Part shown: positions 93 to 26,592 of the stretch, piece by piece | How positions within the stretch are numbered: the stretch's first letter is position 1 | Layout: each line of letters begins with the position of its first letter | Assembly: GCA_026993525.1 (NCBI GenBank) | Contig: JALWSS010000200.1 | Span: 1 to 37,866, forward strand | Reading direction: 5' to 3' | Length of the DNA: 37,866 bases | Origin: Saprospiraceae bacterium | GTDB lineage: Bacteria > Bacteroidota > Bacteroidia > Chitinophagales > Saprospiraceae | Notes under the pieces: generated by a model | What the model was told of the DNA's origin: nothing | The model's input: only the letters and a program-made list of their open reading frames with translations | Database searches by the model: none | Program-made: the position numbers and the translations under genes

Positions 93-2576
93 ATGGTTTT
101 TCTTTACAGGTTGTCGTTTTTTATCGTCGCAATGGCAGCGCTGGGCCAGACATTGGCGCAGCCGATGGACTATTTGAGGATGAAAGGCTGCCGCTATGCC
201 ATGAACGCCGTGGCACAACCCCAACTGACAGACGAAGAACGCCTGCTGGTATGCGGCAGCAATGCCCGCAGCGACAGCATTGACATTCTGAATTACGACG
301 TGACCCTGGACCTGACCAACTTTGCCGGCCAGACCCTCAGGGCCTCGTGTGAGCTGACCCTGACCCCGAAACAGGCCAGCATTGCCGCCCTTCCGCTGGA
401 CCTGCTGGCGCTGGAAATTGACTCGGTGGTGATGGGCGGAGATACCCTGAGCTACGATTACGACGACCTGTTGCTGAACGTGCACTTCCCCACCCCATTG
501 CCGCAAGGCGACACCGCTCAGGTTACGGTGTATTACCACGGCCACCCAACGGTGGACCCTTCCGGTTTCGGCGGTTTTGTCTTTGACCAGAACATCGGCT
601 ACAACCTGGGCATCGGGCTGGCTTCCAATCCTTACAATTTTGGCCGCAGCTGGCACCCCTGCTTCGACAATTTCGTGGAGCGGGCCACTTACGACATCAC
701 CCTCATCTCCAACGGTGGCCGCAAGGGCTACGCCACCGGCGAGCTGGTGGACAGCCAGAACCTGGGCGGCGACACGCTGATGCGCCGTTACCGCATGAGC
801 CTGCCACTGCCCACTTACCTGGTGGGCTCGGCCACTTCCAATTACATTGAGCACCACGACACCCACAGCGGTGCCTATGGTGACTATCCGGTACTGCTGG
901 TGGGCAAGCCGGCCGACAGCCTGGACATGGTAGAGGCCTTCAGCTACCTGGATGATGCCGTGGATGTGCTGGAAGCCTGGTACGGACCCTACATCTGGGG
1001 GCAGGTGGGCTATGTGATGACCACCCGTGGCGCCATGGAACACGCCTCGCTGATCGCATTCCCGGTGTTCAGCATTGCCAGCGGTCCGGAGATGCCCATG
1101 AACCGCCTGATGTCGCACGAGCTGGCACACCACTGGTGGGGCAACATCACCACCCTGAGCTGCCCTGACAACATGTGGATCAAAGAAGGCAATGCCGAGT
1201 ACGGCGCCCACCTTTTTACGGAGTTCGCCTTCGGTAAAGAGGAGTTCATTAAACAGGTGAAAAACAACCACTACAACGTTTTGCAGAATGCCCACAAAGA
1301 CGACGGCGGCAACTTCCTGCCGCTCTCGGGCATTCCCTACGAATATACTTATGGCACGCACACCTACAACAAAGGTGCTTCCGTAATGCACAACCTCAGG
1401 GGCTACCTGGGCGACTCGCTCTTTCAGCAGGGCATGCGCTCCATTCTGGATACCTACGGACTGGAGGCGGTGGATGCGGAGCAGTTCCGGGATCAGCTCA
1501 CCGCCAACACCGGGGTGGACATGACCAGCTTTTTCGACGACTGGATTTATGCACCCGGATTTGCAGCTTACGAGCTGGATTCCGTCATTGTGGAACCGGC
1601 CGACATTCCCGAAGAGTTTGAGGCCACCCTTTACGTGCAACAGAAGCTGCGGGCAGCACCCCACTTCCACACCAACGTGCCGCTGGAAGTGACCTTCTAC
1701 GACGAGGACTGGAATGCCTGGCACAGCACCATCATGGTTTCCGGTGAGTTTTCTTCGGCAACGGTGAATGTGCCCTTCAACCCCGTGTGGACGGTGCTGA
1801 ACGACCGCAACCAACTCAACCTGGCAAGCACCCAAAACAAAACCACCGTTTACGAAGAAGGAGATATCAATTTGCAGTTCAGCGAGCTGGTGACCTTCGA
1901 CGCCATCACGGTGCCGGACTCAGCCCTGATCAACATCATCCATTACTGGGTAGGGGCCGACCCCATAGAGCCCAATCCGACCGGAGCGCAGATCAGCAAT
2001 ACCCACTACTGGCGCTTCGACGGCATCATTCCGGCCGGGTTCAAGGCCAAAGCCACCATGCAGTACAAAGGCGCCAACCCACTGGATTTCGACTATGAAC
2101 TGACCAACGGCAACGAGGACAGCCTCATCCTGGTCTGGCGACCCCGGCCGGGCATCGCCTGGAAGGAGTACCCCTGGTACAAAAAACTGACCCTGGGTGG
2201 CAACACCGACGGCAACGGCTTCATACGCATTGACAGCATGATACCCGGCGACTATGCCTTCGCCAACGGCCACCTGGAAGTGGCCACCTCCACCCTTGAG
2301 TCCACCCAATACGACGATGTGCTGGTGTATCCCAACCCCAACAATGGCACCTTCAACATCGAGGCCCGTTTGCCGAAGGAAACAAAAAAGGTGACAGCCA
2401 CCCTGTACAGCCTGACCGGTGCTCCCATGTGGGAGGATGAATACTGGGTGTCAGGCGGGCAGCTATCAAGGCTGGTTTCGGTTCCGCAATTGGCACCGGG
2501 ACTGTATTTTCTGAAGATTGGAAATGCCAGAGGCAAGATGCTCTATGCGGGCAAGGTGCTGTTGCGGCAGCGATGA
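93..2576 (+). CDS. Secreted M1-family zinc metallopeptidase with T9SS sorting domain
   Basis: An 827-residue protein with an N-terminal signal peptide (hydrophobic residues about 3-20, ending near LAQP). The M1 zinc site is complete: HELAH at residues 342-346 and the third ligand Glu in KEG near 365, the expected 18 residues further on. The upstream exopeptidase motif reads GAMEH instead of the usual GAMEN. A conserved Tyr region (YGTHTYNKGA) follows. The last ~80 residues (VLVYPNPNNGTFNIE to the end) are a T9SS type A sorting domain, so the enzyme is probably exported through the outer membrane and anchored or released. Likely role: trimming N-terminal residues from extracellular peptides; this is family knowledge, not shown here. 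The ATG at 93 directly precedes the signal peptide. It converges on the next gene. Confidence 0.9.
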   Translation: MVFLYRLSFFIVAMAALGQTLAQPMDYLRMKGCRYAMNAVAQPQLTDEERLLVCGSNARSDSIDILNYDVTLDLTNFAGQTLRASCELTLTPKQASIAALPLDLLALEIDSVVMGGDTLSYDYDDLLLNVHFPTPLPQGDTAQVTVYYHGHPTVDPSGFGGFVFDQNIGYNLGIGLASNPYNFGRSWHPCFDNFVERATYDITLISNGGRKGYATGELVDSQNLGGDTLMRRYRMSLPLPTYLVGSATSNYIEHHDTHSGAYGDYPVLLVGKPADSLDMVEAFSYLDDAVDVLEAWYGPYIWGQVGYVMTTRGAMEHASLIAFPVFSIASGPEMPMNRLMSHELAHHWWGNITTLSCPDNMWIKEGNAEYGAHLFTEFAFGKEEFIKQVKNNHYNVLQNAHKDDGGNFLPLSGIPYEYTYGTHTYNKGASVMHNLRGYLGDSLFQQGMRSILDTYGLEAVDAEQFRDQLTANTGVDMTSFFDDWIYAPGFAAYELDSVIVEPADIPEEFEATLYVQQKLRAAPHFHTNVPLEVTFYDEDWNAWHSTIMVSGEFSSATVNVPFNPVWTVLNDRNQLNLASTQNKTTVYEEGDINLQFSELVTFDAITVPDSALINIIHYWVGADPIEPNPTGAQISNTHYWRFDGIIPAGFKAKATMQYKGANPLDFDYELTNGNEDSLILVWRPRPGIAWKEYPWYKKLTLGGNTDGNGFIRIDSMIPGDYAFANGHLEVATSTLESTQYDDVLVYPNPNNGTFNIEARLPKETKKVTATLYSLTGAPMWEDEYWVSGGQLSRLVSVPQLAPGLYFLKIGNARGKMLYAGKVLLRQR

Positions 2577-2610
2577 CAGGGCGCCGGAGTATGGCGGCCC
2601 CTCATCCCTC

Positions 2611-2697
2611 CCCCGATGCCGATCCCGAAGAATTTCGGGATGGCACGGGGCATCCCTCATCCCCCGTCTGTTCAGCCGGGCAAGCTCATCCCTTCAT
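2611..2697. repeat. Composite intergenic repeat with nested hairpin
   Basis: This fills most of the gap between two convergent genes. ATCCCGAA (2622-2629) and TTCGGGAT (2634-2641) form an 8-bp stem with loop GAAT, enclosed by TGCC/GGCA with one bulged base. CATCCCT units follow, then a 42-bp block (2651-2692) that recurs exactly at 20344-20385. A related composite lies in inverted orientation at 36518-36575. Confidence 0.75.
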
Positions 2698-2732
2698 CCG
2701 TGAGAACCTGCGATGCTGACAATACGGGCAGC

Positions 2733-3824
2733 TTATTGAATCACGAGTTTCCGGCCGGTGTAAAGGTCATATTCTGAAATATAGAACAAGGCGGTGTAAA
2801 TGCCGGGGGGCAGGGCTGACACGTCCAGTGTGGTCTGGTTGTTTATTTCGCTTCGCAACATTTCTTTTCCGAGGTTGTCGAAGATGCTAAGCTGACCGGA
2901 AAGTGGTTTGCCGAAGGAAATAGTGACAGCGCTGTGGGCCGGATTGGGGAAAATGTCAATGTCAATTCCCTGGCCTGCGACCTCTTTGGAAGCGAAAACC
3001 ATACAGGGATTTTCCCGCAATATCTGGCGCACCGTTTTGCAGCCTTTGCCTTCGATAAAGTTGAGCCAGTTGAAAAAATAGCTCGGGTTGGCGTTGAAAT
3101 CGAAAACGTGGGTGACCACTCCCACTACTGAATAATCGTTGGAAAATCCGTTGTCGAGGTACAGGTTCTTGACGGCATTCACTTTGCCGATGTTATCTAT
3201 AAAAAAGTAGTTGATCTGGCAGGTTAGGTAAGGGCCGTACGTCTGGCCGGCCATTTCTGTGGGTCCATGCACCACGGGATACGGATTGGAAAAAGCCTGT
3301 GCCGGATCGGTGCGGCCACCATCCGTGCGATAAGGCACATCGGGGTACATATCAACGGCCGGGTTGTTGTCGCTGGAGCCCCAGGTGAGCAGGAGGGAAT
3401 CGCCGCAGAGTACATCCAGGCTGTCCCAGAATGGTTGCATGTTGCTGATGAGTACGCCGCTGTCGCATGCCGGCGCTTGTGGCTGGTAGAGCATGATGGA
3501 ATCGGCCACATAATTGGTCAGGCTGTCCCAGAAGCAATGAAAAATGCTGTGATGATGTGCGGCAATCTCATGTCCCCATTCCTGCCATTCCCGCACTTGC
3601 TGAAGTTTGGCATCGTCTTCCAGAATGCTGTACACCCATTGGGGCGACAATTCCAGGGTGAGGGGTACGTTGTGTACCGTTGCACTGTCCACCATTTGCC
3701 TGAGCTTGGGGAACAGGTGGGAAAAACCCGGATCACAGTGAATGACGAAAAAGGAATTCTCAGGCTGGGACCAAAGAGAAAGAGAAAAAGCAATGGAAAT
3801 CAACAAAAGTGAGATGTGTTTCAT
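2733..3824 (-). CDS. Secreted polysaccharide-deacetylase-like protein with T9SS sorting domain
   Basis: A 363-residue protein with a signal peptide (MKHISLLLISIAFSLSLWSQ). The mature N-terminus resembles a NodB-type deacetylase: FVIHCDPG could replace the usual catalytic DDG motif, and HEIAAHHHSIFH carries a His-x3-His pair like the metal-binding motif 2. Later NodB motifs are not clear, so the enzymatic call is an inference. The C-terminus from about residue 285 (IDIFPNPAHSAVTISFGKPL onward) is a T9SS type A sorting domain. A likely role is modification of surface or extracellular polysaccharide. It is a single gene, convergent with the M1 peptidase and divergent from a lipoprotein gene about 500 nt away. 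Start ATG at 3824. Confidence 0.65.
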   Translation of the reverse strand: MKHISLLLISIAFSLSLWSQPENSFFVIHCDPGFSHLFPKLRQMVDSATVHNVPLTLELSPQWVYSILEDDAKLQQVREWQEWGHEIAAHHHSIFHCFWDSLTNYVADSIMLYQPQAPACDSGVLISNMQPFWDSLDVLCGDSLLLTWGSSDNNPAVDMYPDVPYRTDGGRTDPAQAFSNPYPVVHGPTEMAGQTYGPYLTCQINYFFIDNIGKVNAVKNLYLDNGFSNDYSVVGVVTHVFDFNANPSYFFNWLNFIEGKGCKTVRQILRENPCMVFASKEVAGQGIDIDIFPNPAHSAVTISFGKPLSGQLSIFDNLGKEMLRSEINNQTTLDVSALPPGIYTALFYISEYDLYTGRKLVIQ

Positions 3825-4330
3825 GGAGCAAAAGGTTTAATTTGTGAAAAACGGCTCCTGAGACCGCGAAGCTGCCAAATGGTTTATTGAGCCATAAGTA
3901 TGCCTGTTTGGCTGGGCTGAAGGGGCACCCGACATCCCGGATCGCCAGAGCGCGGGTTACCAATCGCCGGGGAATGAGCTTGCCCGGCCCGCCCGACGAA
4001 CAGGGTGACCCAGGGTCATCACCTCACTTTCCAATTTTTGTTTACACCCGACACGTAGTGGTTTGCTAAAATCCGTAATCATCATCCGATGTGGAGGGGG
4101 AGTTTGGGTTCCGGAGCCCAAACCACTTCGTTTTGCGTGTATTCCAACAAAACTTGCCGGGGAAAGCAATCTGCACCGGAACCGTGTGATACAGGTTGTT
4201 TTCTTTACCAAATATTTGATTTTCAGTCCAATATACCTTATATTGCAGCACTTTACACTCCTGTCAACAAGTGCCCCACCTCCGCATTGGTAACCCATCC
4301 TGATTTCTACTCATCCATAAATGATTTGTT
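3825..4330. other. 506-nt intergenic region, no convincing gene
   Basis: This lies between divergent genes. Short open frames exist but lack credible protein features. A segment at about 3974-4002 (ATGAGCTTGCCCGG...GAACAG) is a degenerate inverted relative of the dispersed block at 2661-2690 and 20354-20383. TGACCCAGGGTCA at 4006-4018 is a perfect odd palindrome that could be an operator, but this is unsupported. The right half is AT-rich and presumably holds the promoter of the lipoprotein gene; no clear TAnnTTTG box was found. Confidence 0.4.
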
Positions 4331-5897: not shown

Positions 5898-8642
5898 CTA
5901 TGAAAAAGCTCCCTCGAGCAAGGCTGCCTGTTGTTCGTCGTGCTTTTTCTTGTAGCCGGTGGCAGGGTTTGAGTTTGCCGGGCGGGCCACCACCTCCATG
6001 TTGTAGGTGCGCCAGAAGTGAAACAGTATGTGCGGCCAGGCGCCCATGTTGGCGGGTTCTTCCTGCACCCAGCGCATTTTGGCCTTATTGTATTTCTTCG
6101 CAATGACGGCCAGTTGCTTTTCCGGGAGCGGATACAGTTGTTCCAGACGAACGATGGCCACGTCTTCCCGCTTGTCTTCCAGTTGTTTGGCCCTGAGCTC
6201 GTAGTACAATTTTCCGTTGCAGAGCAAGAGGTGTTTCACCCTGGCCGGATCGGCCGTGGGGTCGTCGAGGATTTCCTGAAAGCGGGTGCCGGGGCCCAGC
6301 TCTCTGACATCGCTGATGAAATTCGGATTTCGCAATCCGCTCTTCGGCGTGAAGAGGATCAGGGGTTTGCGGAAGTCCCGCACCATTTGCCTGCGGAGCA
6401 GGTGAAAGAGGTTGGCCGGGGTGGTCACATTGGCAACGGTCATGTTGTTGTGGGCACAAAGCTGCAGGAAGCGCTCCATGCGGGCACTCGAGTGTTCGGG
6501 GCCCTGGCCTTCAAAACCGTGCGGCAGAAACATGCACAACCCGCTCATGCGCTGCCATTTGCGCTCGGCAGCGGCGATGAACTGGTCTATGACCACCTGG
6601 GCGCCGTTCACGAAATCACCGAATTGCGCCTCCCAGACCACCAGGGCATCGGGCCGTGCCAGGGAGTAACCGTACTCAAATCCGAGCACCCCGTATTCCG
6701 ACAAGAGGGAGTTGTAAATACGGAACTGGCCCTGGCCATCTTTCATGCCGTGCAGGCGGTTGTGTTCCTGTTCATTTTTTTCGTCAAAAAGGATGGCGTG
6801 GCGGTGGCTGAAGGTGCCGCGCTGCACATCCTGGCCGCTCATGCGCACGTCGTTGCCGTCCAGCAGGATGGTGCCGTAGGCCAGCAACTCGGCCAGGGCC
6901 CAGTCGAGCTTGCCGGCATCCACCAGCTTTTGGGAGGACTTGAGCACCCGCTTGATCTTGCTGACGGGGTTGAAGCCCCCGGGTATGGTGTGGATGTGCT
7001 TCAGAATGGCCTGGAGGGTCTTCACCTCCACGCCGGTTTTCGGGGAACTCTCAAAGTCCTTGTCCGTGGTCTGTTTGCGCAGCGAGCGCCAGGCCTGCTC
7101 GCTCTCCTGGTACTCGTAGGGCAATTTCTTTTGCTTCACCTCGTCCAGCCGGGCCTGTAGTTCGTTCCAGAACTCTTTTTCCATGTCTTCGGCCAGCTTG
7201 CGTTCCACATCGCCCCTTTCCACGAGGGTTTTCACATACACCTCACGGGGGTCGGCGTGCTTGCTGATGAGGTCGTAAAGGATGGGCTGGGTGAATTTGG
7301 GATCGTCGCCTTCGTTGTGGCCGTGTTTGCGGTAGCAGACCATGTCAATGAACACGTCGTTGTTGAATTTTTGCCGGTAGGCGACGGCCAGTTTTGAGAC
7401 AAAAGCCACTGCTTCGGGGTCGTCGCCATTGACGTGGAATACGGGAGCCTGCACCACACTCGCAACACCGGTGCTGTAAGTGGACGACCGCGCATCGCCC
7501 CAGTCGGTGGTGAATCCGATCTGGTTGTTGATGACGAAATGGATGGTTCCGCCGGTGTAGTAGCCATCCAGCTGGCTCATCTGCACCACTTCGTACACCA
7601 CGCCCTGCCCTGCCACTGCGGCATCACCGTGGATGAGGATGGGCAGGATCTTATCGTAGTCGCTGCCGTAAAGGGTATCGGCTTTTGCCCGGGCGAATCC
7701 TTCCACCACCGGGTCAACGGCCTCGAGGTGGCTGGGGTTGGGCACCATTTTCAGGTACACGGTTTTGCCTTCGGCATTTTTCACCATGGAAGAGAAGCCA
7801 AGGTGGTATTTCACATCGCCGTCGCCCCAGGCGGCATCTTCGGGCATGTCACCCTCAAATTCTGAGAATATCTGCTCGTAGGTTTTGCCCATGATGTTGG
7901 CCAGCACGTTGAGGCGGCCGCGGTGGGCCATCCCGATGACCACTTCGTCCACCCCGTCTTTGGTGGCCTTGTTGATGATGGTGTCCAGGGCCGGGATGGT
8001 GGTTTCGCCCCCTTCCAAGGAAAAGCGCTTCTGACCGATGAACTTCGTGTGCAGGAAGCGCTCAAAAACAGTGGCACCGTTGAGTTTTTGCAGAATGCGT
8101 TTTTTCTCATCCAGGGTCAGGCCGTACTGGGTTTCGGGGGTCAGTTGTTCGATGAGGTTGCGAAGCCAACGGCGCCTTTCACGGTCGTTGATGTGATGGA
8201 ACTCAAAACCGATGTTTCCGCAGTAGATGGTGCGCACCCGCTGGAAAATTTCCCGGAGGGTGGCATTCTCCATTCCGATCTCGATGCCGGCAACGAAGCG
8301 GGTGTCGAGGTCGGCCTCAGACAAGCCAAAGTCTTCCACTTCCAGAAAGGGCATGCGGTTTTTCCGGGGCTTCAGCGGGTTGGTGGTGGAAAGGAGGTGC
8401 CCCCTGTTGCGGTGGGCAATGATGAGCCAGTGCACCCGCAGTTCTTTGCGCATGTGCGCTATGCCCATGCCCGTGGCGCTGCCGTTGGCGGCGGCCGCAC
8501 CGTTCACCTTCATGTTGAAGTCGAAACCTTTGAAGAAAAGGCGCCAGCTCTCCTCCACGGAGTCGGGGTCTTTCAGGTATTGCTCATACAGCGATTCGAT
8601 GTAGCCCGGATGAGCATTGGCGATGAACGAGAAATCAGTCAT
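5898..8642 (-). CDS. sucA: 2-oxoglutarate dehydrogenase E1 component
   Basis: A 914-residue thiamin-diphosphate-dependent decarboxylase, the usual length for E1o. It decarboxylates 2-oxoglutarate and passes the succinyl group to E2 (SucB) in the TCA cycle. Visible landmarks are the N-terminal E2-interaction segment (FIANAHPGYIESLYEQYL), GMAHRGRLNVLANIMGK, the ThDP/Mg region HGDAAVAGQG with VINNQIGFTT, and the C-terminal transketolase-like domain (FLPHGFEGQGPEHSSARMERFLQL). The frame also opens at TTG 8654, but ATG 8642 (MTDFSFIANAH) matches family N-termini and is chosen. No sucB is adjacent; the iron transporter fusion follows directly. A terminator at 8717-8738 separates it from the upstream kinase gene, so it should have its own promoter, which I could not locate. 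Confidence 0.95.
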   Translation of the reverse strand: MTDFSFIANAHPGYIESLYEQYLKDPDSVEESWRLFFKGFDFNMKVNGAAAANGSATGMGIAHMRKELRVHWLIIAHRNRGHLLSTTNPLKPRKNRMPFLEVEDFGLSEADLDTRFVAGIEIGMENATLREIFQRVRTIYCGNIGFEFHHINDRERRRWLRNLIEQLTPETQYGLTLDEKKRILQKLNGATVFERFLHTKFIGQKRFSLEGGETTIPALDTIINKATKDGVDEVVIGMAHRGRLNVLANIMGKTYEQIFSEFEGDMPEDAAWGDGDVKYHLGFSSMVKNAEGKTVYLKMVPNPSHLEAVDPVVEGFARAKADTLYGSDYDKILPILIHGDAAVAGQGVVYEVVQMSQLDGYYTGGTIHFVINNQIGFTTDWGDARSSTYSTGVASVVQAPVFHVNGDDPEAVAFVSKLAVAYRQKFNNDVFIDMVCYRKHGHNEGDDPKFTQPILYDLISKHADPREVYVKTLVERGDVERKLAEDMEKEFWNELQARLDEVKQKKLPYEYQESEQAWRSLRKQTTDKDFESSPKTGVEVKTLQAILKHIHTIPGGFNPVSKIKRVLKSSQKLVDAGKLDWALAELLAYGTILLDGNDVRMSGQDVQRGTFSHRHAILFDEKNEQEHNRLHGMKDGQGQFRIYNSLLSEYGVLGFEYGYSLARPDALVVWEAQFGDFVNGAQVVIDQFIAAAERKWQRMSGLCMFLPHGFEGQGPEHSSARMERFLQLCAHNNMTVANVTTPANLFHLLRRQMVRDFRKPLILFTPKSGLRNPNFISDVRELGPGTRFQEILDDPTADPARVKHLLLCNGKLYYELRAKQLEDKREDVAIVRLEQLYPLPEKQLAVIAKKYNKAKMRWVQEEPANMGAWPHILFHFWRTYNMEVVARPANSNPATGYKKKHDEQQAALLEGAFS

Positions 8643-8828: not shown

Positions 8829-10124
8829 CTACGCCAGCGGCCACCAGCTTGTTACGCTGGTGCCTTTGCCGGGTTGACTTTCCAACAATACTCTTCCGCC
8901 GTGTGCCTGGACGATCTGCCGGACGTAGCTGAGGCCCAGCCCGAAGCCCTTCACCTTGTGGCCGCCGGATTGCGGAACCCGGTAAAATTTATCGAAGACA
9001 GCCTTTTGATGGGCCGGGGGGATGCCGGGGCCGTTGTCCCTGACGATCAGTTTCGCAAAGCGCTTGTCCTGCCGTGCCCCGATGTGTATTTCCACGCTCC
9101 CCCCTCCGTATTTGATGGCGTTGTCGAGCAGGTTGCGCAGCGCGTTTTTGAAATGCGCTTCGTCAACATCCATTTTCAGGGTTTCGTCAAGTTGTGTTTT
9201 GAATGTTGCCTTCGGAAAACCCGAATGGTACTCGGCCACCACCTCTGCAAGGCATTTGCCCAGGTCCACCACAGACTTGTTTAGCTGGTATTTGCCGCTT
9301 TGCAGGCTGGCCAGTTCCAGCACCTTCTCCACCTGCACTTTCATTTTCTCATTTTCCTGTTGGATGAGCTGAAGGTATTTTTTTGCCTGCTCCACATTGC
9401 CGGAACCTGTCCCGACATCTCGGGAGGCGAGTTGCTCCAGAGCCATTTTTGATGAAAGAGAAATGGAAAATGCCGGCGTTTTGAGTTCATGCGTGAGGTT
9501 GTTGATGAACTCGTTTTTGATTTCATTCAGTCGCTCCTCACGTCGCAATGTGCTGATGAGCAGGAACAAACCCAGCAGGATGACCAGCAGACAGGCCACC
9601 GACGGCCACAGCAGGTAATCCAGTTCGCCCAGCAAATAGGAGAACAGGGAGGGCACATCCAGGTGCAGGGCCCTGTTGCAACTGAGCTCCGGTTGCAGGG
9701 CTGCCTGGCTGCACTGCTCCACCACCGCCGGCCCCAGCCGCATGGTGTAACGGCCGAAATTGAAGGCCTCCCGTTCAAAACCGGGGCTGCTGAGGTACAC
9801 CCTCCGGGCAAAGTAATCGGTGATTGCAAAGGTCACTTTCGCACTGATGCCCTCGTTTTTCAGCGCTGCGGCAATGGTGGTGTCAATGTCAGCCACAAGC
9901 GTGGCAGGTGCATCGGCGCTGCCGGTGGCCAGCCAGTGGCCAAGTTCTCCGGCCAGCACCCCATCTTCGTCAATGGCCAGTACCGCTTTCTGCAAAGCAC
10001 TCTCGATGCGGTGGTCAAAGCGCTGCTTTTCCAGCCGTACCCCCACCATCAGCAACCTGAACTGGATAAAGATCAGTCCGCCCAGTGCCAGCAGGATCAG
10101 TATTGCAAGGATGCTTCTTTTCAT
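8829..10124 (-). CDS. Orphan membrane sensor histidine kinase
   Basis: A 431-residue kinase. Transmembrane segment 1 is at residues 5-25, a periplasmic sensor region of about 140 residues follows with no recognised fold, and transmembrane segment 2 is at about 171-193. The HisKA helix carries phospho-acceptor His212 (NNLTHELKTP). The HATPase domain shows the N box (NLLDNAIKY, 331-339), G1 box DNGPG (363-367) and G2 box GFGLGL (393-398). It should autophosphorylate and pass phosphate to a response regulator, but none is encoded nearby, so partner and signal are unknown. The periplasmic region has two Cys (about 137 and 149) that could form a disulfide. It ends with its own terminator, so it is probably monocistronic. 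Confidence 0.9.
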   Translation of the reverse strand: MKRSILAILILLALGGLIFIQFRLLMVGVRLEKQRFDHRIESALQKAVLAIDEDGVLAGELGHWLATGSADAPATLVADIDTTIAAALKNEGISAKVTFAITDYFARRVYLSSPGFEREAFNFGRYTMRLGPAVVEQCSQAALQPELSCNRALHLDVPSLFSYLLGELDYLLWPSVACLLVILLGLFLLISTLRREERLNEIKNEFINNLTHELKTPAFSISLSSKMALEQLASRDVGTGSGNVEQAKKYLQLIQQENEKMKVQVEKVLELASLQSGKYQLNKSVVDLGKCLAEVVAEYHSGFPKATFKTQLDETLKMDVDEAHFKNALRNLLDNAIKYGGGSVEIHIGARQDKRFAKLIVRDNGPGIPPAHQKAVFDKFYRVPQSGGHKVKGFGLGLSYVRQIVQAHGGRVLLESQPGKGTSVTSWWPLA

Positions 10125-10599: not shown

Positions 10600-10623
10600 G
10601 GTTGGGAGGGTTATGGGGGTTGT

Positions 10624-10731
10624 CGGTTATCAGTTGGCAGTTGGCAGTTGGCAGTTATCAGTTGGCAGTTATCAGTTGGCAGTTGGCAGTTGGCAGTTAT
10701 CAGTTGGCAGTTATCAGTTGGCAGTTGGCAG
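10624..10731. repeat. Tandem heptamer array AGTTGGC/AGTTATC
   Basis: About fifteen consecutive 7-bp units alternate irregularly between AGTTGGC and AGTTATC. The array sits about 25 nt past the stop of the small lipoprotein gene. Because 7 is not a multiple of 3, it opens false reading frames in all phases. Confidence 0.9.
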
Positions 10732-10870: not shown

Positions 10871-11848
10871 CGTCTTCTTCTCTTCAAAGAGCCGGGTAGC
10901 CTGGCCTACCCAGTCGTCGCGATGGATGCGGTTTTTGAAGCTACCCAGCGCCACGGAAATCCGTTCGATGTCTTCTTCGTCAAAATGGCTGATTTGCTCA
11001 TAATTGTAAATGCCGAGGGCGTTCAGCTTCTCTTCGATGCCGGGGCCAATGCCTTTGATTCTGGTCAGGTCGTCTTTTTCGGGGGTTTTTGGTTGGGCTG
11101 ATTTTTTCTGAGTCTTTCCTTTTCCTTCCACTGCTTTTTGCACGGCTGCGCCCATCACCTCGCTGAGCGATTCGCTGACGGGCCTTTTTTCTTCCTTCGG
11201 CAAATCCATGCCCTTTGCTTGGGCCAGTTCTTTGCGAAGGGCCTCGTTTTCTTCCATCAGGGCGGAGAAGCGCTTTTCGAGGGCTGCCAGCCGCATCCGG
11301 GTTTCTCTGAATTCGGCCGGATTGGGTGCTCCTTTCAGGCTGCTGTTTTCGGCCAGCAGGCGTGTGATCTTTTCTTCCAGGGCTGCCAGCCTGGCTGCGG
11401 TAGAATCGGTGCCGCCGTTTACGGGGGCGGCATTGCCCATGCGGGTTTTCAGGCCCAGGAGCTGGTTGTTGAGGTCTTCGATGGTACTGGCATAAGAGCG
11501 GGCGTCTTCCTCTGCCTGTGCTGCCCGGTGCTGTGCCTGTTTCAGTTCCTGTTGCCATTGGCTGCGCTCTTCTTCCAGTTTTCGGATGTAGGCAGCCAGT
11601 TCTTCCGACTCCCGCTCCAGGCGTACCAGATCGGCTTTGCCCAGATCGGCTTCTTCCCGAAGTTGATCCCGCTCTGCTGTGGCCTGCCCGAGGTCGGTTT
11701 TGGCAGCCTTCAGTTTCTTTTTCAGCCTGGAGGCACGGGAGCCGTAAAGGATCCAGGCAGTGACATAACCGATGAGAAAAGCAACGAAAACAGAGATCAG
11801 AAAAGCGATGCTGTCTTCGTGGGTCAGGGAGGCAAAGAGATTATTCAT
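10853..11848 (-). CDS. Membrane-anchored coiled-coil protein with C-terminal helix-hairpin-helix domain
   Basis: A 331-residue protein. One transmembrane helix (about residues 14-36) is followed by a basic stop-transfer segment (RASRLKKKLKAAK). A long charged coiled coil covers roughly 40-235, and a Lys-rich linker leads to a compact domain (DDLTRIKGIGPGIEEKLNALG ... RIHRDDWVGQATRLF). That domain is the helix-hairpin-helix form seen appended to many bacterial proteins, including some L21 and NADH dehydrogenase subunits; DNA or protein binding is possible. The likely topology is inner-membrane anchored with the coil in the cytoplasm. It starts 24 nt after the OmpA-type gene, so the two form an operon. 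Its last residues (VTRDA) are encoded by the adjoining heptamer repeat. Confidence 0.8.
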   Translation of the reverse strand: MNNLFASLTHEDSIAFLISVFVAFLIGYVTAWILYGSRASRLKKKLKAAKTDLGQATAERDQLREEADLGKADLVRLERESEELAAYIRKLEEERSQWQQELKQAQHRAAQAEEDARSYASTIEDLNNQLLGLKTRMGNAAPVNGGTDSTAARLAALEEKITRLLAENSSLKGAPNPAEFRETRMRLAALEKRFSALMEENEALRKELAQAKGMDLPKEEKRPVSESLSEVMGAAVQKAVEGKGKTQKKSAQPKTPEKDDLTRIKGIGPGIEEKLNALGIYNYEQISHFDEEDIERISVALGSFKNRIHRDDWVGQATRLFEEKKTVTRDA

Positions 11849-12766: not shown

Positions 12767-12911
12767 GGTTCGTGTTCCGAAGTTTCCCGAAGGAAATCCC
12801 GATGGTGTTTGTTCGTTGGGCAATGGCAAAGATAACCAGCATTCGTGCTTCGATTCCCCTGCCTTTTGCCCCTTCGTTCAAAAGTATGGAATTCAGCTTA
12901 TTGGCCAAAAT

Positions 12912-15767: not shown

Positions 15768-16060
15768 AGCCTGTCCGGCTGGCGCCAGGCCAGACGGGGG
15801 TGTAGAGTGTAGGGTGTAGAGTTTAGGGAGTAGGGTTTGGAGGAGCTAGCCCCTTTCATCCCTCATCCCTCTCCCGACGAATGTCGGGATCATCCCTCAT
15901 CCCTCATCCCTCATCCCTCATCCCTCATCCCTCATCCCTCATCCCTCATCCCTCATCCCTCACCCCTCACCCCTCATCCCTCATCCCTGAGTAGGGTGTA
16001 GGGTTTGGAGTTCGTCACGCCTGTCACGAGTCACGAGTCACGAGTCACGTGTCACGAGTT
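15768..16060. repeat. Repeat block: CCAGACGGGG element, CATCCCT and GTCACGA heptamers
   Basis: This covers most of the porZ-brkB gap. A CTGGCGCCAG palindrome inside a segment ending CCAGACGGGGG (15768-15800) is related to the segment at 23631-23676. TAGGGTG-type units follow, then CATCCCT heptamers (15857-15992) interrupted by palindrome TCCCGAC-GAAT-GTCGGGA (15872-15889), and GTCACGA heptamers (about 16020-16060). The brkB promoter starts immediately after the last unit. Confidence 0.85.
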
Positions 16061-17086: not shown

Positions 17087-17194
17087 TGCTTTGCGAAGCG
17101 AAGAAGTGAATGAATTGGTTAGGTCGTCAATACCCGCTCGGGCTTCACCTATACCTGACCCAATGGTAATCAAACAATTACACCGCATTTAGTG

Positions 17195-17875: not shown

Positions 17876-17934
17876 TCTCGAATTGGCCGAAATAAGGCTA
17901 AAATAAGGGTTTTGCGAAGCGAGAAAATGAATGT

Positions 17935-19214: not shown

Positions 19215-20222
19215 TCAATTGACTCCCGCAAGTTTCTTCCGCAACACCTCCCGCACGATCACCTCCCCGTGGTGGCGGGTGTTTTCGATGAACAGCTTGC
19301 TGGTGTTGAGGCCGGCCTGCACCACCCCGGCCAGGTACACATTGGGCAGGTTCGACTCAAAGGTATCGGGGGTCATCACCGGGGTTCGTTCCTCGTCGTC
19401 GTTGATGGCGATGCCCATTTTCCGAAGGAAACCGTAGTTGGGCTGGTAGCCGGTCATGGCCAGCACAAAGTCGTTTGGCAGCTCTACTTCCCCATCGGGT
19501 GTGTTGAGCACCGCAGTGTCCGGTTTGATTTCCTTTACCGTGGTATTGAAATACGCCTTGATGCTTCCTTCGGCAATTCGGTTTTCGATGTTGGGTTTGA
19601 TCCAGTATTTCACTTTCTCATAAATGCCGTTTTCACGGATGGCCATGGTCACTTCGGCCCCTTTGTAATAGGTCTCCAGGGCCACATCGCAGGCGCTGTT
19701 GGCAGCGCCCACTACCAGCACCTTCTGCCCGATGTAGGGATGCGCCTCGTCGTAGAAATGTTTCACCTTCGGCAAATCCTCGCCCGGCACGCCCATCATC
19801 CGGGCGGTGTCGTAAAAACCGGTGGCAATGACCACAGTGCGGGTCTGGTACTCACTTTTGCCGGTTTTTACTTTGTATAGCCCTTCGGGCAATGCCTCCA
19901 GGCCCTGCACCGCCTCGTACAGGTGTATGGGCAGCTTCCAGAACTCCGCCACCCGGCGGTAATATTCCAAAGCCTCCCTGCGGGTGGGTTTGTCGCTGTG
20001 GGAAATAAAAGGGGTGTTGCCAATCTCCAGTTTCAACGAAGTGGAAAAAAAGGTCATGTTGGTGGGGAAATTAAAAATGGAATTGACCAATACACCCTTT
20101 TCCAGAATGAGGCAATTGAGCTTGTGCCTCCGGGCCTCGATGCCACACGCCAGCCCGGACGGACCCGCACCCACTATCAGCAAGTCGTAAATATTCCCAG
20201 CGTTTTTCCGATTCATGTTCAT
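19215..20222 (-). CDS. ypdA: YpdA-family FAD/NADPH-dependent thiol-disulfide reductase
   Basis: A 335-residue flavoprotein. The FAD-binding GAGPSG is at residues 18-23, VIATGFYD near 132-138, and the NADPH-binding VVGAANSACD near 171-180. The N-terminal signature (LNCLILEKGVLVNSIFNFP, then MTFFSTS) is typical of YpdA, proposed to reduce bacillithiol disulfide in Firmicutes. Whether this organism makes bacillithiol cannot be seen here, so another low-molecular-weight thiol is possible. It acts in the cytosol. Convergent with the ATPase gene (9-nt gap) and divergent from the DUF3667 gene across a CATCCCT repeat region. A second in-frame Met lies two codons after the first. Confidence 0.85.
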   Translation of the reverse strand: MNMNRKNAGNIYDLLIVGAGPSGLACGIEARRHKLNCLILEKGVLVNSIFNFPTNMTFFSTSLKLEIGNTPFISHSDKPTRREALEYYRRVAEFWKLPIHLYEAVQGLEALPEGLYKVKTGKSEYQTRTVVIATGFYDTARMMGVPGEDLPKVKHFYDEAHPYIGQKVLVVGAANSACDVALETYYKGAEVTMAIRENGIYEKVKYWIKPNIENRIAEGSIKAYFNTTVKEIKPDTAVLNTPDGEVELPNDFVLAMTGYQPNYGFLRKMGIAINDDEERTPVMTPDTFESNLPNVYLAGVVQAGLNTSKLFIENTRHHGEVIVREVLRKKLAGVN

Positions 20223-21716: not shown

Positions 21717-21735
21717 AATTACTGACCCCACCCCT

Positions 21736-21743: not shown

Positions 21744-21760
21744 CCTTTCAATTCTCCCTC

Positions 21761-22861
21761 ATGCGGATACAGGACCAACATTATCGGACCATTTGGGAAA
21801 AAGCCGGTTCAACCGGCACCGTGCAGGTCATTGACCAGCGGGTGTTGCCGTTTGAGCTGCGCATTGCCGAATGGAAGCAATTGGAAGACGCTGCCACCGG
21901 CATCCGGGACATGCAGGTGGGGGGGGCGCCGCTCATTGGCAGTGCGGCTGCCTACGGCATGTGGTTGGGCATCCGGGAGCTGAACCAGGCGTCCAACTGG
22001 CCAAAAGCCCTGGACGGGATCGCTAAAACGCTGCTCGGAACCAGGCCCACTGCGGTGAACCTCCGCCATGCCGTTGAAGCGGTGCTAAATGCCTGCTCCC
22101 GTCTTGCGACGAAAAAAGAATTGGCAACAGCAGCCTTGAATGTGGCCCGCCGTATCACAGAAGAAAGCGTGGAACATTGCCGGGCCATCGGCGAACACGG
22201 GCTTGAACGCATCTGCGACATTTACCGAAGGAAACAAAAACCTGTAAACATACTGACCCACTGCAATGCCGGCTGGCTGGCCTGCATAGACTTCGGCACG
22301 GCCACCGCACCCATGTACCTGGCCCACGACGAGGGCATCCCGGTTCACGTCTGGGTGGACGAAACCCGGCCGCGCAACCAGGGCGCCAGACTCACAGCCT
22401 TCGAGCTGGGGCAGCACGGCGTGCCGCACACCGTCATTGCCGACAACACGGGCGGACACCTGATGCAACTCGGAATGGTGGACCTGGTGCTGGTGGGAAG
22501 CGACCGCACCACCCGCAACGGCGATGTGGCCAACAAAACAGGCACCTACCTGAAAGCCCTGGCAGCACATGACAACGGGGTGCCATTCTATGTGGCATTG
22601 CCCTCCAGTTCCATTGACTGGTCGCTGCGCAATGGCGCCGATATTGAAATTGAACAGCGAAACCCGGACGAGGTGCAGTTCATCACCGGCCACGACGGAC
22701 AGGCCTTGCGCAAGGTTCGCCTGACCCCGGAAGCCAGCCCCGCCGCCAACTTCGCTTTTGATGTCACTCCCGCCAGGCTCGTCACCGGACTGATCACAGA
22801 ACGGGGCATCTGCGAGGCGTCGGAAAAGGCGTTGACAGGGCTGTTTCCGGAGTGGTCGTAG
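21761..22861 (+). CDS. mtnA: S-methyl-5-thioribose-1-phosphate isomerase family protein
   Basis: A 366-residue protein of the MtnA/eIF2B-alpha-like family, which converts methylthioribose-1-phosphate to methylthioribulose-1-phosphate. Catalytic residues are in place: Cys168 (THCNAGWLA) and Asp248 (VGSDRTTRNGDVANKTGTY). TRPTAVNL and DETRPRNQGARLTAFEL are also standard. Unusually, the substrate-binding VRGAP motif reads VGGAP at residues 53-57, so the Arg is replaced by Gly; this lies in a run of eight G. The open frame starts at 21608 inside repeats, but ATG 21761 after the promoter box is chosen. The adjacent class II aldolase supports a role in methylthioribose metabolism. The related 5-deoxyribose route is an alternative. 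Confidence 0.88.
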   Translation: MRIQDQHYRTIWEKAGSTGTVQVIDQRVLPFELRIAEWKQLEDAATGIRDMQVGGAPLIGSAAAYGMWLGIRELNQASNWPKALDGIAKTLLGTRPTAVNLRHAVEAVLNACSRLATKKELATAALNVARRITEESVEHCRAIGEHGLERICDIYRRKQKPVNILTHCNAGWLACIDFGTATAPMYLAHDEGIPVHVWVDETRPRNQGARLTAFELGQHGVPHTVIADNTGGHLMQLGMVDLVLVGSDRTTRNGDVANKTGTYLKALAAHDNGVPFYVALPSSSIDWSLRNGADIEIEQRNPDEVQFITGHDGQALRKVRLTPEASPAANFAFDVTPARLVTGLITERGICEASEKALTGLFPEWS

Positions 22862-22864
22862 ATT

Positions 22865-22959
22865 GTGGCTCCCCGAGGGATCGGGGCAGGCTGTGGCTCC
22901 CCGAGGGATCGGGGCAGGCTGTGGCTCCCCGAGGGATCGGGGCAGGCTGTGGCTCCCCG
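22865..22959. repeat. 28-bp direct repeat x3.4 between mtnA and the aldolase gene
   Basis: Units begin at 22865, 22893 and 22921, with a partial one at 22949. They are identical as read and have no spacers between them. Each contains the stem-loop CCCCGA-GGGA-TCGGGG followed by CAGGCT. Related single copies are at 12975-13003 and twice in 26653-26715. Contiguous units rule out a CRISPR. Confidence 0.9.
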
Positions 22960-23015
22960 TGCCGTCCCCGATTAAACCGATTAATCCGATTTCACCGATT
23001 TCACCACTCCCAACC

Positions 23016-23724: not shown

Positions 23725-23732
23725 GAGTTACT

Positions 23733-24035: not shown

Positions 24036-25549
24036 CCCACCCTGATCGCCTTCCTGAACCGCAACACATCCTGCATATCGGCGATGGCGGCGGCGAGGTC
24101 AGCATTTCTGTATTCCACTTCGTCCCAATCTTCGTTGAGAACATTCTCCATGCCCGGAGGGGCGTGGCAGCCCATCAGCCGGAGCAGTTCGGGCAGGTGC
24201 GGGGCTTCCCAAAGCTGCCAGTTGCGACTGAGGGCAAACCGGCGGAAATTGCGAAGGAGCAGGTACACGAGGTCTTCCGGCCAGGTGCCCCTTACTGCCT
24301 GCAGGAGGGGCAAGATTTGGCGGGACGCCGAAAGAAAATCCCGTTTTTTTCCGAAGAGCGATGTTGCGAAGCGAAGCAAAAAATCCGGGCTGAGCAGTGG
24401 GGCCAGCTCTGCCAGGCCCTTTTCCCGGACGGGCGGGTCAGGGTACTCAGGCAATGCCAAAAGCAGGGCCTCCGCCCATGCCGTTGATTTGAACCTGACA
24501 GCGGCTTGTTTCAGGGCTTCGGCAAGGGTCTCCGCCCAATCGGAATCGAGGAACAGCTCCACCACCTCGCCAGCCGCCATGCCCAGGTGATGTGGCCAGT
24601 GCCCCGGCGGCACCCGTGAAACCACCTGCCCCAGCCAACCCGCCTTGCGCCCGCCGGGCCACTCCGGTGCGACGGGCCTGATGCCGTCTCTTCGGGCCTC
24701 TTTATCCACCTCTTCAGGGATGTGAACGATGAGCCGGCGGCCGTCGAAACCAAGGCTGTCCATGGCACGGCGGTACATGCGCTGGCCGAGCGCTGAGGTG
24801 GGCAATTGCGCCAGCAGACCGGATGCCACTTTTCGCACTTCTGCCCGTTTGTCATCCAGGCAGCGCTCCAGAAAGGGCTCATCTGCCAGGCTGAGGCCTT
24901 CGGAAAATGCAGCCAGAAAGGCAGCCCGGTCGGCCGGATTTTCTTGTGGCCAGGTGCCCTCCAAAAGGATTCTGGCCCGGTCCGGTTTTTCCCCTCGCAA
25001 CTGCCGCAGCAGGGCAAGGCGCTTCATGCTGCTGCCGGTCTCCCACAGTTGTCCGGTTTCTTTTCCTTCGGCAAACGGGGCGGCGGCCCATTGCTGACAG
25101 TCCGGGTTCTGACGCAAGAGCCATTGGCCGGAACGGCCGATGAATGGCTCAATCTGTGGCCATAGGGTTTTCAGGTCTTTGGCCTCCATGATCTGCGGTA
25201 TCAGCCGGGTGGGGATTCGTTGCTTTTTTTTCTGAAGCAGAGAGAGAAACTCCGGCAAAACATCGGCGTATCTGCCTTCCAGAATGAGCTGCAGGTGATG
25301 TGCGGAAACACGCGACAACGCAGGCAACTCGTCCTTCCCGATGGCTCCGGGCAGCACACCCTGAAATTCTTCAAAAGGTATTTTCGCCTTGCGCAACTGG
25401 CCAAAAGCCGCCGCCGCATTGGCCAGCACCTCAGCCGGATCGCCGCCGGTGCTGATGCCCAGCTTTTTCAGGGCCGCTATGGTCTGCTCGTCCAGCGGGT
25501 GTCGCCCGGTGCCCAAAAGGGCGGATTTGATGAGTTGTTGCCAATGCAT
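24014..25549 (-). CDS. DUF5691 domain protein
   Basis: A 511-residue cytosolic protein matching the DUF5691 family (MHWQQLIKSALLGTGRHPL ... WDEVEYRNADLAAAIADMQDVLRFRKAIRVGF). It appears mostly helical with HEAT-like stretches (FSEGLSLADEPFLERCLDDKRAEVRKVASGLLAQL). In many bacteria DUF5691 lies in a cluster with a SWIM zinc-finger protein, a MoxR ATPase and a VWA protein, of unknown role; those partners are absent here. The open frame reaches 25612, but Met 25549 is the family-like start. It follows the glycosyltransferase by 26 nt and is probably co-transcribed. The last residues (EESRI) and the stop are encoded by the octamer array. Confidence 0.8.
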   Translation of the reverse strand: MHWQQLIKSALLGTGRHPLDEQTIAALKKLGISTGGDPAEVLANAAAAFGQLRKAKIPFEEFQGVLPGAIGKDELPALSRVSAHHLQLILEGRYADVLPEFLSLLQKKKQRIPTRLIPQIMEAKDLKTLWPQIEPFIGRSGQWLLRQNPDCQQWAAAPFAEGKETGQLWETGSSMKRLALLRQLRGEKPDRARILLEGTWPQENPADRAAFLAAFSEGLSLADEPFLERCLDDKRAEVRKVASGLLAQLPTSALGQRMYRRAMDSLGFDGRRLIVHIPEEVDKEARRDGIRPVAPEWPGGRKAGWLGQVVSRVPPGHWPHHLGMAAGEVVELFLDSDWAETLAEALKQAAVRFKSTAWAEALLLALPEYPDPPVREKGLAELAPLLSPDFLLRFATSLFGKKRDFLSASRQILPLLQAVRGTWPEDLVYLLLRNFRRFALSRNWQLWEAPHLPELLRLMGCHAPPGMENVLNEDWDEVEYRNADLAAAIADMQDVLRFRKAIRVGFEESRI

Positions 25550-25575
25550 TCGGTGATGTATTTTACAAACCTGCC

Positions 25576-26592
25576 TCAGGCAAACCTGAAGAACTCCCTC
25601 CCTTCCTGCCATCCGTTTTGCCGAAGGAAAGAAAGAATACTGTTCTGGTCAGCGGGAGCGGCCACAGCGATGATGATCCGGGGCCTGGCCAGTTCCCCAA
25701 TTGCCGTTGTCGGCTCAAAAGTAACGCCATACATCCTGTGGCCCCATTTGGTCGGGGTGTTGCACACCCAACGGAAGGGGATGTTTACAGCGTTCAGCCG
25801 TCGGGCGATCTCTTTGCCTTTCTTTCCGGCACCCCAGATCACAAGCTGATTTTCCGGCCGGTAGTCGGTTTTGAGGAACCAATCCATCTTCAGGTCCAAG
25901 AAGCGGTTGTCCCGGTACAATTCGCTGTTGCGGGAAGTTCGCCGGGGGTGGTCACGCCATTGGTGCAGCGGCTCGGCGGTGCTCACCACTTGCAATCCAC
26001 CGTGGTACATTCTGAAGCAGAGGTCGTAATCTTCGGGATAGGTGTCAGTTTGAAAGGCCCCGATCCGGTTCAGGTCTTCCCGCTGTGCCATCCAACAGGG
26101 CGACGGGATGACACACTCCCTGTAAACCTCCCGGAAATGCCCGCCGGTGGCAGCCAGGCCGTTCAGCCAGTTGGCGTAGTGGCGGTAGCCGGCGCCCAGT
26201 TTTTTTCCTTCGGCAAAATAGCGGACACCGCCTGTGGCCACATACCCGGGGCCCTTTGCTTCCAGCAAACCTGCCAGCCTACCCAGTTTTGCAGGCAGCA
26301 TCATGTCGTCGGCATCCATGCGGGTGACGAATGGCCCGGTGCTGTTTTCAAATGCCAGCCGGAGTGCCGGGGCGATGCCTTTGTGTTCGTTGCGGAGCAC
26401 GGTGATGCGCCGGTCCGTTTTTGCGAAGCGAAGCAAAATGTCCAGACTGTCATCTTCGGAAAAATCATCCACGGCCAGCAGTTCCCAGTCCCGCCGGCTT
26501 TGCGACAGAATGCTCTCCAGGCAGGCCCCGAGGTAGGGCCCGGCGTTGAAGACGGGCATCAGGATGGCTATTTTTTTTGGCTCGTGGCTCAT
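25576..26592 (-). CDS. Family 2 glycosyltransferase with C-terminal Rossmann-like extension
   Basis: A 338-residue GT-A enzyme. The nucleotide-sugar binding start is IAILMPVFNAGPYLGACLESIL, then AVDDFSEDDS, and the metal-binding motif MDADD lies at residues 92-96. After the catalytic part, the last ~95 residues (LVIWGAGKKGKEIARRL ... PRIIIAVAAPADQ) form a Rossmann-like segment with GAGKKG, also seen in other Bacteroidota glycosyltransferases. It probably adds a sugar to a surface polysaccharide or glycoprotein; donor and acceptor are unknown. The frame opens 23 codons earlier, inside GTAGCTG-type repeats, but MSHEPKKIAIL at 26592 is the sensible start. Upstream gene of a two-gene unit with DUF5691. 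Confidence 0.85.
   Translation of the reverse strand: MSHEPKKIAILMPVFNAGPYLGACLESILSQSRRDWELLAVDDFSEDDSLDILLRFAKTDRRITVLRNEHKGIAPALRLAFENSTGPFVTRMDADDMMLPAKLGRLAGLLEAKGPGYVATGGVRYFAEGKKLGAGYRHYANWLNGLAATGGHFREVYRECVIPSPCWMAQREDLNRIGAFQTDTYPEDYDLCFRMYHGGLQVVSTAEPLHQWRDHPRRTSRNSELYRDNRFLDLKMDWFLKTDYRPENQLVIWGAGKKGKEIARRLNAVNIPFRWVCNTPTKWGHRMYGVTFEPTTAIGELARPRIIIAVAAPADQNSILSFLRQNGWQEGREFFRFA

Follow-up and report, generated by a model that had tools for sequence, protein, structure and literature searches.

A dispersed family of short DNA words with lineage dialects in Saprospiraceae, and its possible role as a hairpin-type self-DNA tag

The contig JALWSS010000200.1 of a Saprospiraceae bacterium (assembly GCA_026993525.1) carries repeated copies of a 14-mer, TTTGCCGAAGGAAA. 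We analysed positions 1 to 37,866 of this contig (the window), the genome it belongs to, and related genomes. The 14-mer is iterated, as the initial annotation of the window had said, but it is not the unit. It belongs, as one variant, to a word family made up of TTTnCCGAAGG and TTGCGNAGCGA, and the real unit is TTTnCCGAAGG plus its sister word. The earlier observation is correct and its extent is larger than first noted. We are all but certain that the family is a signal at the level of DNA that is being maintained. A single window could not reveal the logic behind it: once relatives are compared, the words emerge as variations on a mini-hairpin. What such words may do is a more tentative matter, for which we weigh a self-DNA tag, used in uptake or recombination, against several alternatives.

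Genome-wide excess of the words

The window's genome (G000) comprises 5.16 Mb in 230 contigs. For the threonyl-tRNA synthetase encoded in the window, most of the closest named relatives are from Saprospiraceae (best 85% identity). It holds 111 perfect copies of TTTGCCGAAGGAAA, 62 on the plus and 49 on the minus strand, compared to 0 of the reversed word, so the iteration noticed in the window holds genome-wide. Among 60 genomes only G004, a sister species from the same genus, has a similar number (118). Copies number 0–12 in the 12 other congeners and 0–3 in the 46 genomes from other genera.

Words were discovered in a sample that joins the window to 792 kb of G000, in which genes were called with our own scorer of open reading frames (ORFs). 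Tandem DNA (8.7% of the sample) was masked because tandem arrays swamped the raw k-mer ranking. The dispersed excess after masking includes TTTnCCGAAGG, with A-rich bases on its 3' side, and TTGCGNAGCGA. In the whole genome TTTnCCGAAGG occurs 1160 times and the reversed word 32 times (1002 and 36 in G004). The sister word TTGCGAAGCGA occurs 480 times compared to 2 (405 and 2 in G004). Copy numbers of hundreds to thousands, far above chance, are a hallmark of uptake sequences. The mismatch spectrum of the words is sharp, and TTGCGAAGCGA tolerates change most at the mid-loop position.

The 12 other congeners have 69–314 copies of TTTnCCGAAGG, with G009 near background (69 vs 58). Outside the genus (46 genomes), the excess is largest in G028 by count (98 vs 18) and in G056 by ratio (33 vs 5). 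In a draw from the phylum that contained no other congener, TTTGCGNAGC is highest in G000 (507 vs 50); G251 comes next by ratio (148 vs 25).

Within the window, 18 sites match TTTGCCGAAGGAAA with at most two mismatches, where 100 dinucleotide shuffles give a mean of 0.56 and at most 3. All five perfect copies first reported are present. The near copies are present too, although the true start of the one placed at 11192 is 11191, and two mismatches are found in the one at 19564. The core CCGAAGGAAA is indeed repeated, but ten times instead of nine (the copy at 19422 had been overlooked), and the chance figure of 0.07 given for it was too low, since the shuffle mean is 0.20. The peptides that had been listed for the copies (LPKE, SFGK, FAEGK twice, FLRQ) are found in the translated ORFs. 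Pfam supports three of the named carrier genes (Peptidase_M1, DUF5691 and Glycos_transf_2, E ≤1e-5); in the supposed deacetylase only a Por secretion tail was matched. The word copies in the window are as follows, with genes marked (Pfam) where the gene rests on a Pfam match.

1228..1238, minus strand: TTTACCGAAGG copy
2369..2382, plus strand: perfect 14-mer TTTGCCGAAGGAAA, within the Peptidase_M1 gene (Pfam)
2848..2858, minus strand: TTGCGAAGCGA copy
2907..2920, plus strand: perfect 14-mer, antisense within ORF 2733-3824
7075..7085, plus strand: TTGCGCAGCGA copy
9209..9219, minus strand: TTTTCCGAAGG copy
11194..11204, minus strand: TTTGCCGAAGG copy; a 14-mer with one mismatch spans 11191-11204
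12783..12793, plus strand: TTTCCCGAAGG copy
17091..17101, plus strand: TTGCGAAGCGA copy, not in a called gene
17912..17922, plus strand: TTGCGAAGCGA copy, not in a called gene
19418..19428, plus strand: TTTTCCGAAGG copy
19766..19776, minus strand: TTTGCCGAAGG copy
22221..22231, plus strand: TTTACCGAAGG copy, within an IF-2B family gene (Pfam)
22622..22632, minus strand: TTGCGCAGCGA copy
24364..24374, plus strand: TTGCGAAGCGA copy, antisense within the DUF5691 gene
24897..24907, minus strand: TTTTCCGAAGG copy, within the DUF5691 gene
25062..25075, minus strand: perfect 14-mer, within the DUF5691 gene (Pfam)
25617..25630, plus strand: perfect 14-mer, antisense within the glycosyltransferase gene (Pfam)
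26204..26217, minus strand: perfect 14-mer, within the glycosyltransferase gene (Pfam)
26421..26431, plus strand: TTGCGAAGCGA copy
35996..36006, minus strand: TTTACCGAAGG copy, within a TonB-dependent receptor gene (Pfam)

The words of G000 are independent of reading frame and without clear polarity

As a control we used 20 synonymous-codon shuffles, which keep each protein and its codon use. TTTnCCGAAGG occurs 164 times in the coding DNA of the G000 sample (533 predicted genes, 688,833 nt), about 14-fold more often than in the shuffles (mean 11.8, maximum 20). For TTGCGAAGCGA there are 63 genic copies (36 sense, 27 antisense) compared to 0.7 in the shuffles, and 12 intergenic ones. All six frames contain TTTnCCGAAGG (sense 33, 10 and 33; antisense 30, 19 and 39). 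Genes contain 23.8 copies of it per 100 kb, and intergenic DNA, once tandem repeats are masked, 22.1. That the words occupy all frames and exceed synonymous shuffles bears out the original view of a signal in the DNA rather than in the protein. Frame-bound words also exist: 65 of the 81 genic copies of TTGACGAAG lie in frame s1. TTGCGACGAA, which is not a clear mini-hairpin, has 26 genic copies compared to 1.05 in the shuffles.

No orientation bias was seen in the genes of G000 (76 sense, 88 antisense copies of TTTnCCGAAGG). There is no clear preference for gene ends either: deciles along genes contain 22 to 37 copies without a trend, and a Fisher test that excluded genes cut at stretch ends gives p 0.62. 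On the contig pieces, 62 of 130 pairs of neighbouring TTTnCCGAAGG copies and 36 of 86 such pairs of TTGCGNAGCGA have both members in the same orientation. Stretches of positive GC skew hold 81 forward and 67 reverse copies of the two words, those of negative skew 65 and 78. Polarity with GC skew or gene direction is a slight leaning at most. With adjacent copies randomly oriented and sense and antisense in balance, the Chi-like reading first suggested finds no support in G000.

Even spacing was rejected as well, since distances are near exponential (coefficient of variation 1.03). The mean spacing is 2.2 kb when three word forms are counted, and clustering between stretches is mild (variance/mean 1.57). 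Word density climbs across quintiles of the GC content of third codon positions, with 13.5 copies per 100 kb at the low end and about 60 at the high end. For lineage-specific genes the numbers are too small to speak of a depletion (2 copies in 11.8 kb vs 55 in 132 kb).

Conservation between genomes

Orthologues were sought for 521 of the 533 proteins, leaving out those shorter than 100 amino acids or with stops, and matches below 45% identity or 60% coverage were dropped. The comparison of G000 with G004 covers 98 orthologous genes (129 kb, 82.7% nucleotide identity). Here 25 of the 32 G000 copies of TTTnCCGAAGG are retained in G004 and 25 of the 28 G004 copies in G000, where matched windows give a background of 0.20. 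For TTGCGNAGCGA the numbers are 17 of 22 and 17 of 21. None of 103 word copies is at a gap in these alignments. Fourfold degenerate sites inside copies are unchanged in 86 of 93 cases, compared to a context-matched expectation of 47.1 (z 8.2). Among words of the same composition, CCGAAGG ranks 2nd of 148 in conservation and GCGAAGC 7th of 148.

The distant congeners G003, G001 and G008 share few orthologues with G000 (18, 12 and 15; 64–68% identical), and the word places are mostly non-homologous. Of the 24 G000 copies compared, 2 are kept and 1 is at a gap; in the reverse direction 2 of 9 copies are kept in G000. Few kept copies and hardly any gaps fit a turnover by substitution at different places, not insertion.

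Dialects and loop lengths in relatives

The dialect of the window's lineage (G000 and G004) is TTTnCC-GAA-GG and TTGC-GNA-GCGA. The enriched words of G003, G001 and G008 include TTGC-GNA-GC and TTGC-GNNA-GC, which exceed synonymous shuffles 6.9-fold and 4.6-fold in their pooled coding DNA. Loops of five and six bases with G..A edges reach 1.3-fold and 1.8-fold, and seven other edges of four-base loops 0.7- to 1.8-fold. The two hairpin words are balanced between sense and antisense (90 and 92; 55 and 60).

The form TTGCGNNAGCAA occurs 69–284 times in the 12 congeners other than G004, compared to 7–26 control copies, with ratios from 5.9 (G012) to 31 (G008). Its numbers are low in G004 (37 vs 11) and G000 (20 vs 14): these two genomes have for the most part replaced this form by their own. 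In G009 TTGCGNNAGCAA is raised (69 vs 8), and the pooled hairpin count of this genome shows no excess (46 vs 53 in the control). TTGCGGAGC ranges from 638 vs 77 in G008 through 169 vs 38 in G000 to 84 vs 54 in G002, the weakest case. TTGCGAAGC is raised in all 14 genomes of the genus, with the lowest ratios in G002 (138 vs 46) and G009 (84 vs 23).

In a set of 199 genomes from the family, high numbers of TTGCGNNAGCAA occur in several other genera (g186, 160 vs 2; g47, 169 vs 3; g196, 187 vs 7; g223, 125 vs 8), and many genomes are near the control. Among 296 genomes of the phylum there are small raised cases (G183, 40 vs 6; G251, 29 vs 2; G149, 21 vs 0; G208, 20 vs 0). The largest count outside the family is that of G269, from another family (160 vs 14). 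One locus of an uncultured Saprospiraceae, CAMZKG010000182.1 (L052), has 10 mini-hairpins with T-rich flanks in 6.2 kb among those listed.

Loop length differs by lineage. The share of G..A edges among TTGC-loop-GC with loops of 3, 4 and 5 nt is 24, 8 and 3% in G000, 26, 20 and 5% in G003, G001 and G008 together, and 11, 48 and 6% in G456, a genome of genus g186. In 63 of 80 named Bacteroidota loci this share is flat at about 5–8% (7, 5 and 6% for TTGC-loop-GC). The pooled hairpin count over the 80 loci is near the control (625 vs 561; the pattern may count one hairpin repeatedly). The CC-loop-GG stem of G456 peaks at the same length of four (4, 43 and 2%). Hence the preferred loop length is three bases for G000, either three or four for the congeners (GC stem), and four for G456.

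G456 is the strongest test of the hairpin pattern. We read 94 kb of it, took the longest ORFs as genes, and were left with an intergenic part of 11 kb. Its top dispersed words include TTTGCGCAAG, TTGCGCAAGC, TTCCGAAAGG and TTGCGAAAGC, which combine the two stems of G000 with a four-base loop. When all 256 stem combinations around a GNAA loop with a T-tract are ranked, the first three are complementary: GC/GC (62 vs 1.8), CC/GG (36 vs 1.5) and TC/GA (17 vs 2.3). The fourth and fifth are not (GC/AA, 27 vs 5.8; CG/AA, 22 vs 5.1), and then follows the complementary CG/CG (9 vs 0.7). Overall, complementary arms have an observed/expected ratio of 4.08 and the remainder 1.27. Four positions 5' of GCGNAAGC are 64–91% T, and this T-tract lies outside the hairpin. 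TTGCGNAAGC has 48 genic copies compared to 2.9 in shuffles (1 intergenic), and TT(n)CCGAAAGG has 32 compared to 0.9 (2 intergenic).

The words as probable mini-hairpins

Extraordinarily stable DNA mini-hairpins are known as laboratory structures formed in vitro. Among the open-licence papers listed, we saw no report of genome-wide GNA or GNNA DNA hairpins, nor of such a dispersed word in Saprospiraceae. DNA mini-hairpins that combine a GNA or GNNA loop with two or more G-C pairs are extraordinarily stable and nuclease-resistant, and hairpins of this type protect 3' ends (PMC4686876). The words have this form: their GNA or GNNA loop sits on a closing C-G, and there are two or more G-C pairs. 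The stable mini-hairpins d(GCGAAGC) and d(GCGAAAGC) share loop type and G-C pairs with them; GCGAAGC itself is among the words of G000 and GCGAAAGC among those of G456.

Folded in silico, TTTTCCGAAGGAAAA reaches −2.7 kcal/mol, the words of relatives −3.3, −4.3 and −3.7, TTTTGCGAAGCGAAAA −1.2 and the reversed 14-mer 0. The complementary stems, the loop classes and the published recipe for GNA and GNNA loops together lead us to conclude that such hairpins, preceded by a T-tract, are the core of the family. We consider this logic likely for the family, and hold it with less confidence for G000's own dialect.

A possible self-DNA tag

In the explanation that we favour, the general word would consist of a T-tract and, behind it, a short stem whose closing C-G pair carries a GNA or GNNA loop. 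A factor would read this word, probably on single-stranded, folded DNA. The weakest step concerns the role: the word may be a self-DNA tag used in uptake or recombination, whose density would be kept up by biased import or recombination (molecular drive). Such a tag would act like the DNA uptake sequences (DUS) of Neisseriaceae, but via a hairpin and without a pilus. As a whole we hold this explanation to be the best available, while giving it somewhat less than an even chance. The tag itself, which we argue for by analogy, is a possibility to be entertained with more caution still.

The analogy draws on several known systems. The uptake signal sequences (USS) of Pasteurellaceae have a GC-containing core with A/T tracts, and the words of G000 share this layout and the high density. 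REP and BIME elements (repetitive extragenic palindromes and bacterial interspersed mosaic elements) with RAYT transposases are also hairpin-type and multicopy. They are imperfect hairpins in many copies, intergenic and longer, whereas the words of G000 measure 11–14 nt and are as dense in genes as between them. As with DUS and USS, genic copies lie in many frames and the same place is kept in a close relative. Two families, Pasteurellaceae and Neisseriaceae, are named as preferring short sequences in uptake (PMC1939737). DUS are likewise short, very numerous and split into lineage dialects (PMC3630211). The words of G000 differ in that they belong to another phylum, vary like hairpins with a switch in loop length, and come without a pilus ATPase above cut-off. 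They differ from USS in lacking gene-end and orientation bias, both reported for uptake sequences (PMC2346458), whereas those of G456 are orientation-biased. The highly iterated palindromes of cyanobacteria (HIP1 and alternate HIPs) share the high iteration and the replacement of one word by another in some lineages (PMC4390886). HIPs, however, are duplex palindromes linked to methyltransferases, whereas TTTnCCGAAGG and TTGCGNAGCGA are not self-complementary and vary like hairpins. The kinship with uptake sequences and HIPs proposed in the initial annotation thus stands as one of type. An identity with a known DUS or HIP is not supported, as G000 has no pilus ATPase above cut-off and the words are no duplex palindromes. 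A thousand-odd conserved, frame-independent copies with dialects resemble uptake sequences more than Chi, KOPS (FtsK orienting polar sequences), HIP or REP.

A look for com genes, as first proposed, was fruitful: ComEC, the inner-membrane channel, is found in 13 of the 14 genomes of the genus, and the one miss, G011, is 85% complete. Within Bacteroidota, Riemerella is competent, pilus homologues have not been detected in it, and it has been proposed to use a novel uptake machine that lacks a pilus (PMC8459023). R. columbina prefers its own DNA; the authors of that study could not settle the cue, and two candidate 10-mers in the paper are A-rich (PMC7965970). The uptake-like pattern, ComEC and the competence of Riemerella lead us to rank the self-DNA tag first, above a nucleoid site, a resection signal and biased repair.

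A number of results weigh against a hairpin that serves as such a tag. On the side of folding, TTTGCCGAAGGAAA reaches only −0.1 kcal/mol with an open centroid, and fold z-scores compared to shuffles are modest for all six words (−0.6 to −2.6). The bases flanking CCGAAGG avoid pairing (27 of 217 complementary vs 48.7 expected), and we reject an extension of the stem by these bases. The hairpin of the G000 dialect is reduced, with a mismatch or wobble beyond two G-C pairs (T.G in TTGCGNAGCGA). On the side of conservation, GCGCAGC is conserved no more than its composition (0.20, rank 76 of 108), and the non-hairpin-like word ATTGCGACG is conserved in 10 of 10 cases between G000 and G004.

On the side of distribution, TTGC-GNA-GC and TTGC-GNNA-GC are sparser in intergenic DNA of G003, G001 and G008 (18.0 vs 36.4 and 7.9 vs 23.0 per 100 kb). 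No clear rise in G..A loops is seen in 17 loci of named Saprospiraceae or their nearest, which total 241 kb (5/93, 14/147 and 5/103 for 3, 4 and 5 nt), and the trait is therefore patchy within the family. GC-GNNA-GC is mildly enriched in unrelated Bacteroidota also (473 vs 352). GNA hairpins without T context are not enriched (1.03) when CC/GG and GC/GC are excluded; a general excess of any short hairpin is unsupported without the T context.

On the side of uptake, we know of no binding protein or transformation phenotype for this organism. The pilus ATPase PF00437 is above cut-off in 3 of the 14 genus genomes (G003; partial in G004 and G008) and not in G000; pilins were not searched for. G000 shows neither the gene-end bias nor the orientation bias described for uptake sequences. 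The hairpin words of G456 are strand-biased in genes (60 antisense, 20 sense), unlike those of G000 and its congeners; this bias recalls the orientation bias of uptake sequences (PMC2346458).

Alternative explanations

A lineage-specific chromosome-organising protein could bind the duplex and recognise a T-tract, a GC core and an A-tract. The absence of polarity and the near-random spacing in G000 suit a duplex-binding protein. TTTT followed by AAAA peaks at a gap of 10 in the coding DNA of G000 (103 vs 40 in shuffles) and at gaps of 4–6 in G003 (118, 119 and 113 vs 27, 23 and 23). However, other gaps and AAAA followed by TTTT also exceed the shuffles, often about two-fold (up to 69 vs 24 in G000 among the gaps listed). 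With the background raised in this way, the TTTT..AAAA peaks stand only about two-fold or less above their surroundings. Further points against a duplex binder are the sharp mismatch spectrum, the asymmetric G..A edge of the loop, and a centre that may be one base longer, tolerated or preferred by lineage, which is unexpected for a duplex reader. We find this explanation doubtful, although a duplex-reading protein with a flexible centre is possible. In G003 and G010, TTTT followed by AAAA at 4–6 bases is about five-fold over synonymous shuffles, where the background is about two-fold, and G010 has a further peak near gap 20.

A signal for recombination or end resection would be Chi-like in its effect: a nuclease-resistant hairpin would halt exonucleases on single-stranded DNA and set the start of recombination. 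Known Chi sites are polar, whereas neighbours in G000 show no polarity (the pairs given above) and only a slight leaning with GC skew. In favour of such a signal are the mean spacing of 2.2 kb and the capacity of mini-hairpins to resist nucleases and guard 3' ends (PMC4686876). On balance, we judge it unlikely.

Biased mutation or repair of the HIP1 type could make and keep the words without any function. It could yield the observed conservation as well as selection could, and HIPs do show lineage-dependent word replacement (PMC4390886). But the words form no duplex palindrome, and the T-tract of G456 lies outside the hairpin, which makes this explanation more unlikely again.

A remnant of a mobile or inserted repeat is very improbable. 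The copies are dispersed and numerous and the same genome has an element resembling a miniature inverted-repeat transposable element (MITE), yet flanks differ among the TTGCGNAGCGA contexts listed (60 of 121) and the alignments are ungapped, with the single gapped copy of 24 found against the distant congeners. A by-product of frequent tetrapeptides and codon use, which would suit frame-bound words such as TTGACGAAG, is refuted for the two main words and deserves next to no credence, since these lie in six frames and between genes, far exceed synonymous shuffles and keep their fourfold sites.

Other repeats

The MITE-like element has the end repeat TATACTCAAAACGAAGTGGTTTGG, found in the window at about 4118-4130 (minus strand). 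There are 25 matches in 830 kb of G000, 23 of them outside predicted genes. Tandem arrays form 40 overlapping rows, many with 7-base units (TCATCCC, CGTGACT, CAACCGC and others). A 28-base unit is repeated 3.4 times with 100% match at 22864-22959, where the IF-2B family gene has just ended and the next predicted ORF begins. Tandem arrays outside called genes include:

10619-10731
15890-15988
31037-31134
31271-31397
37808-37866

Implications

The dialects provide a natural mutational series, in which the stems keep their complementarity and the loop has either three or four bases. As a reading that we hold to be less likely than not, we propose a new class of signal. In a number of Saprospiraceae, a T-tract with a stable mini-hairpin would recur every ~1–2 kb, be kept by selection or drive, and be read as folded single-stranded DNA in transformation or recombination, with the loop (GNA, GNNA or GNAA) as the dialect. 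Should the word be read in its hairpin form, stable DNA mini-hairpins would acquire a genome-wide role. The word, densely repeated, conserved and split into dialects, is a concrete candidate for a self-DNA cue in Bacteroidota. If the proposal is true, this phylum would have its first described self-DNA tag, which would also be the first based on DNA structure and would work without a pilus.

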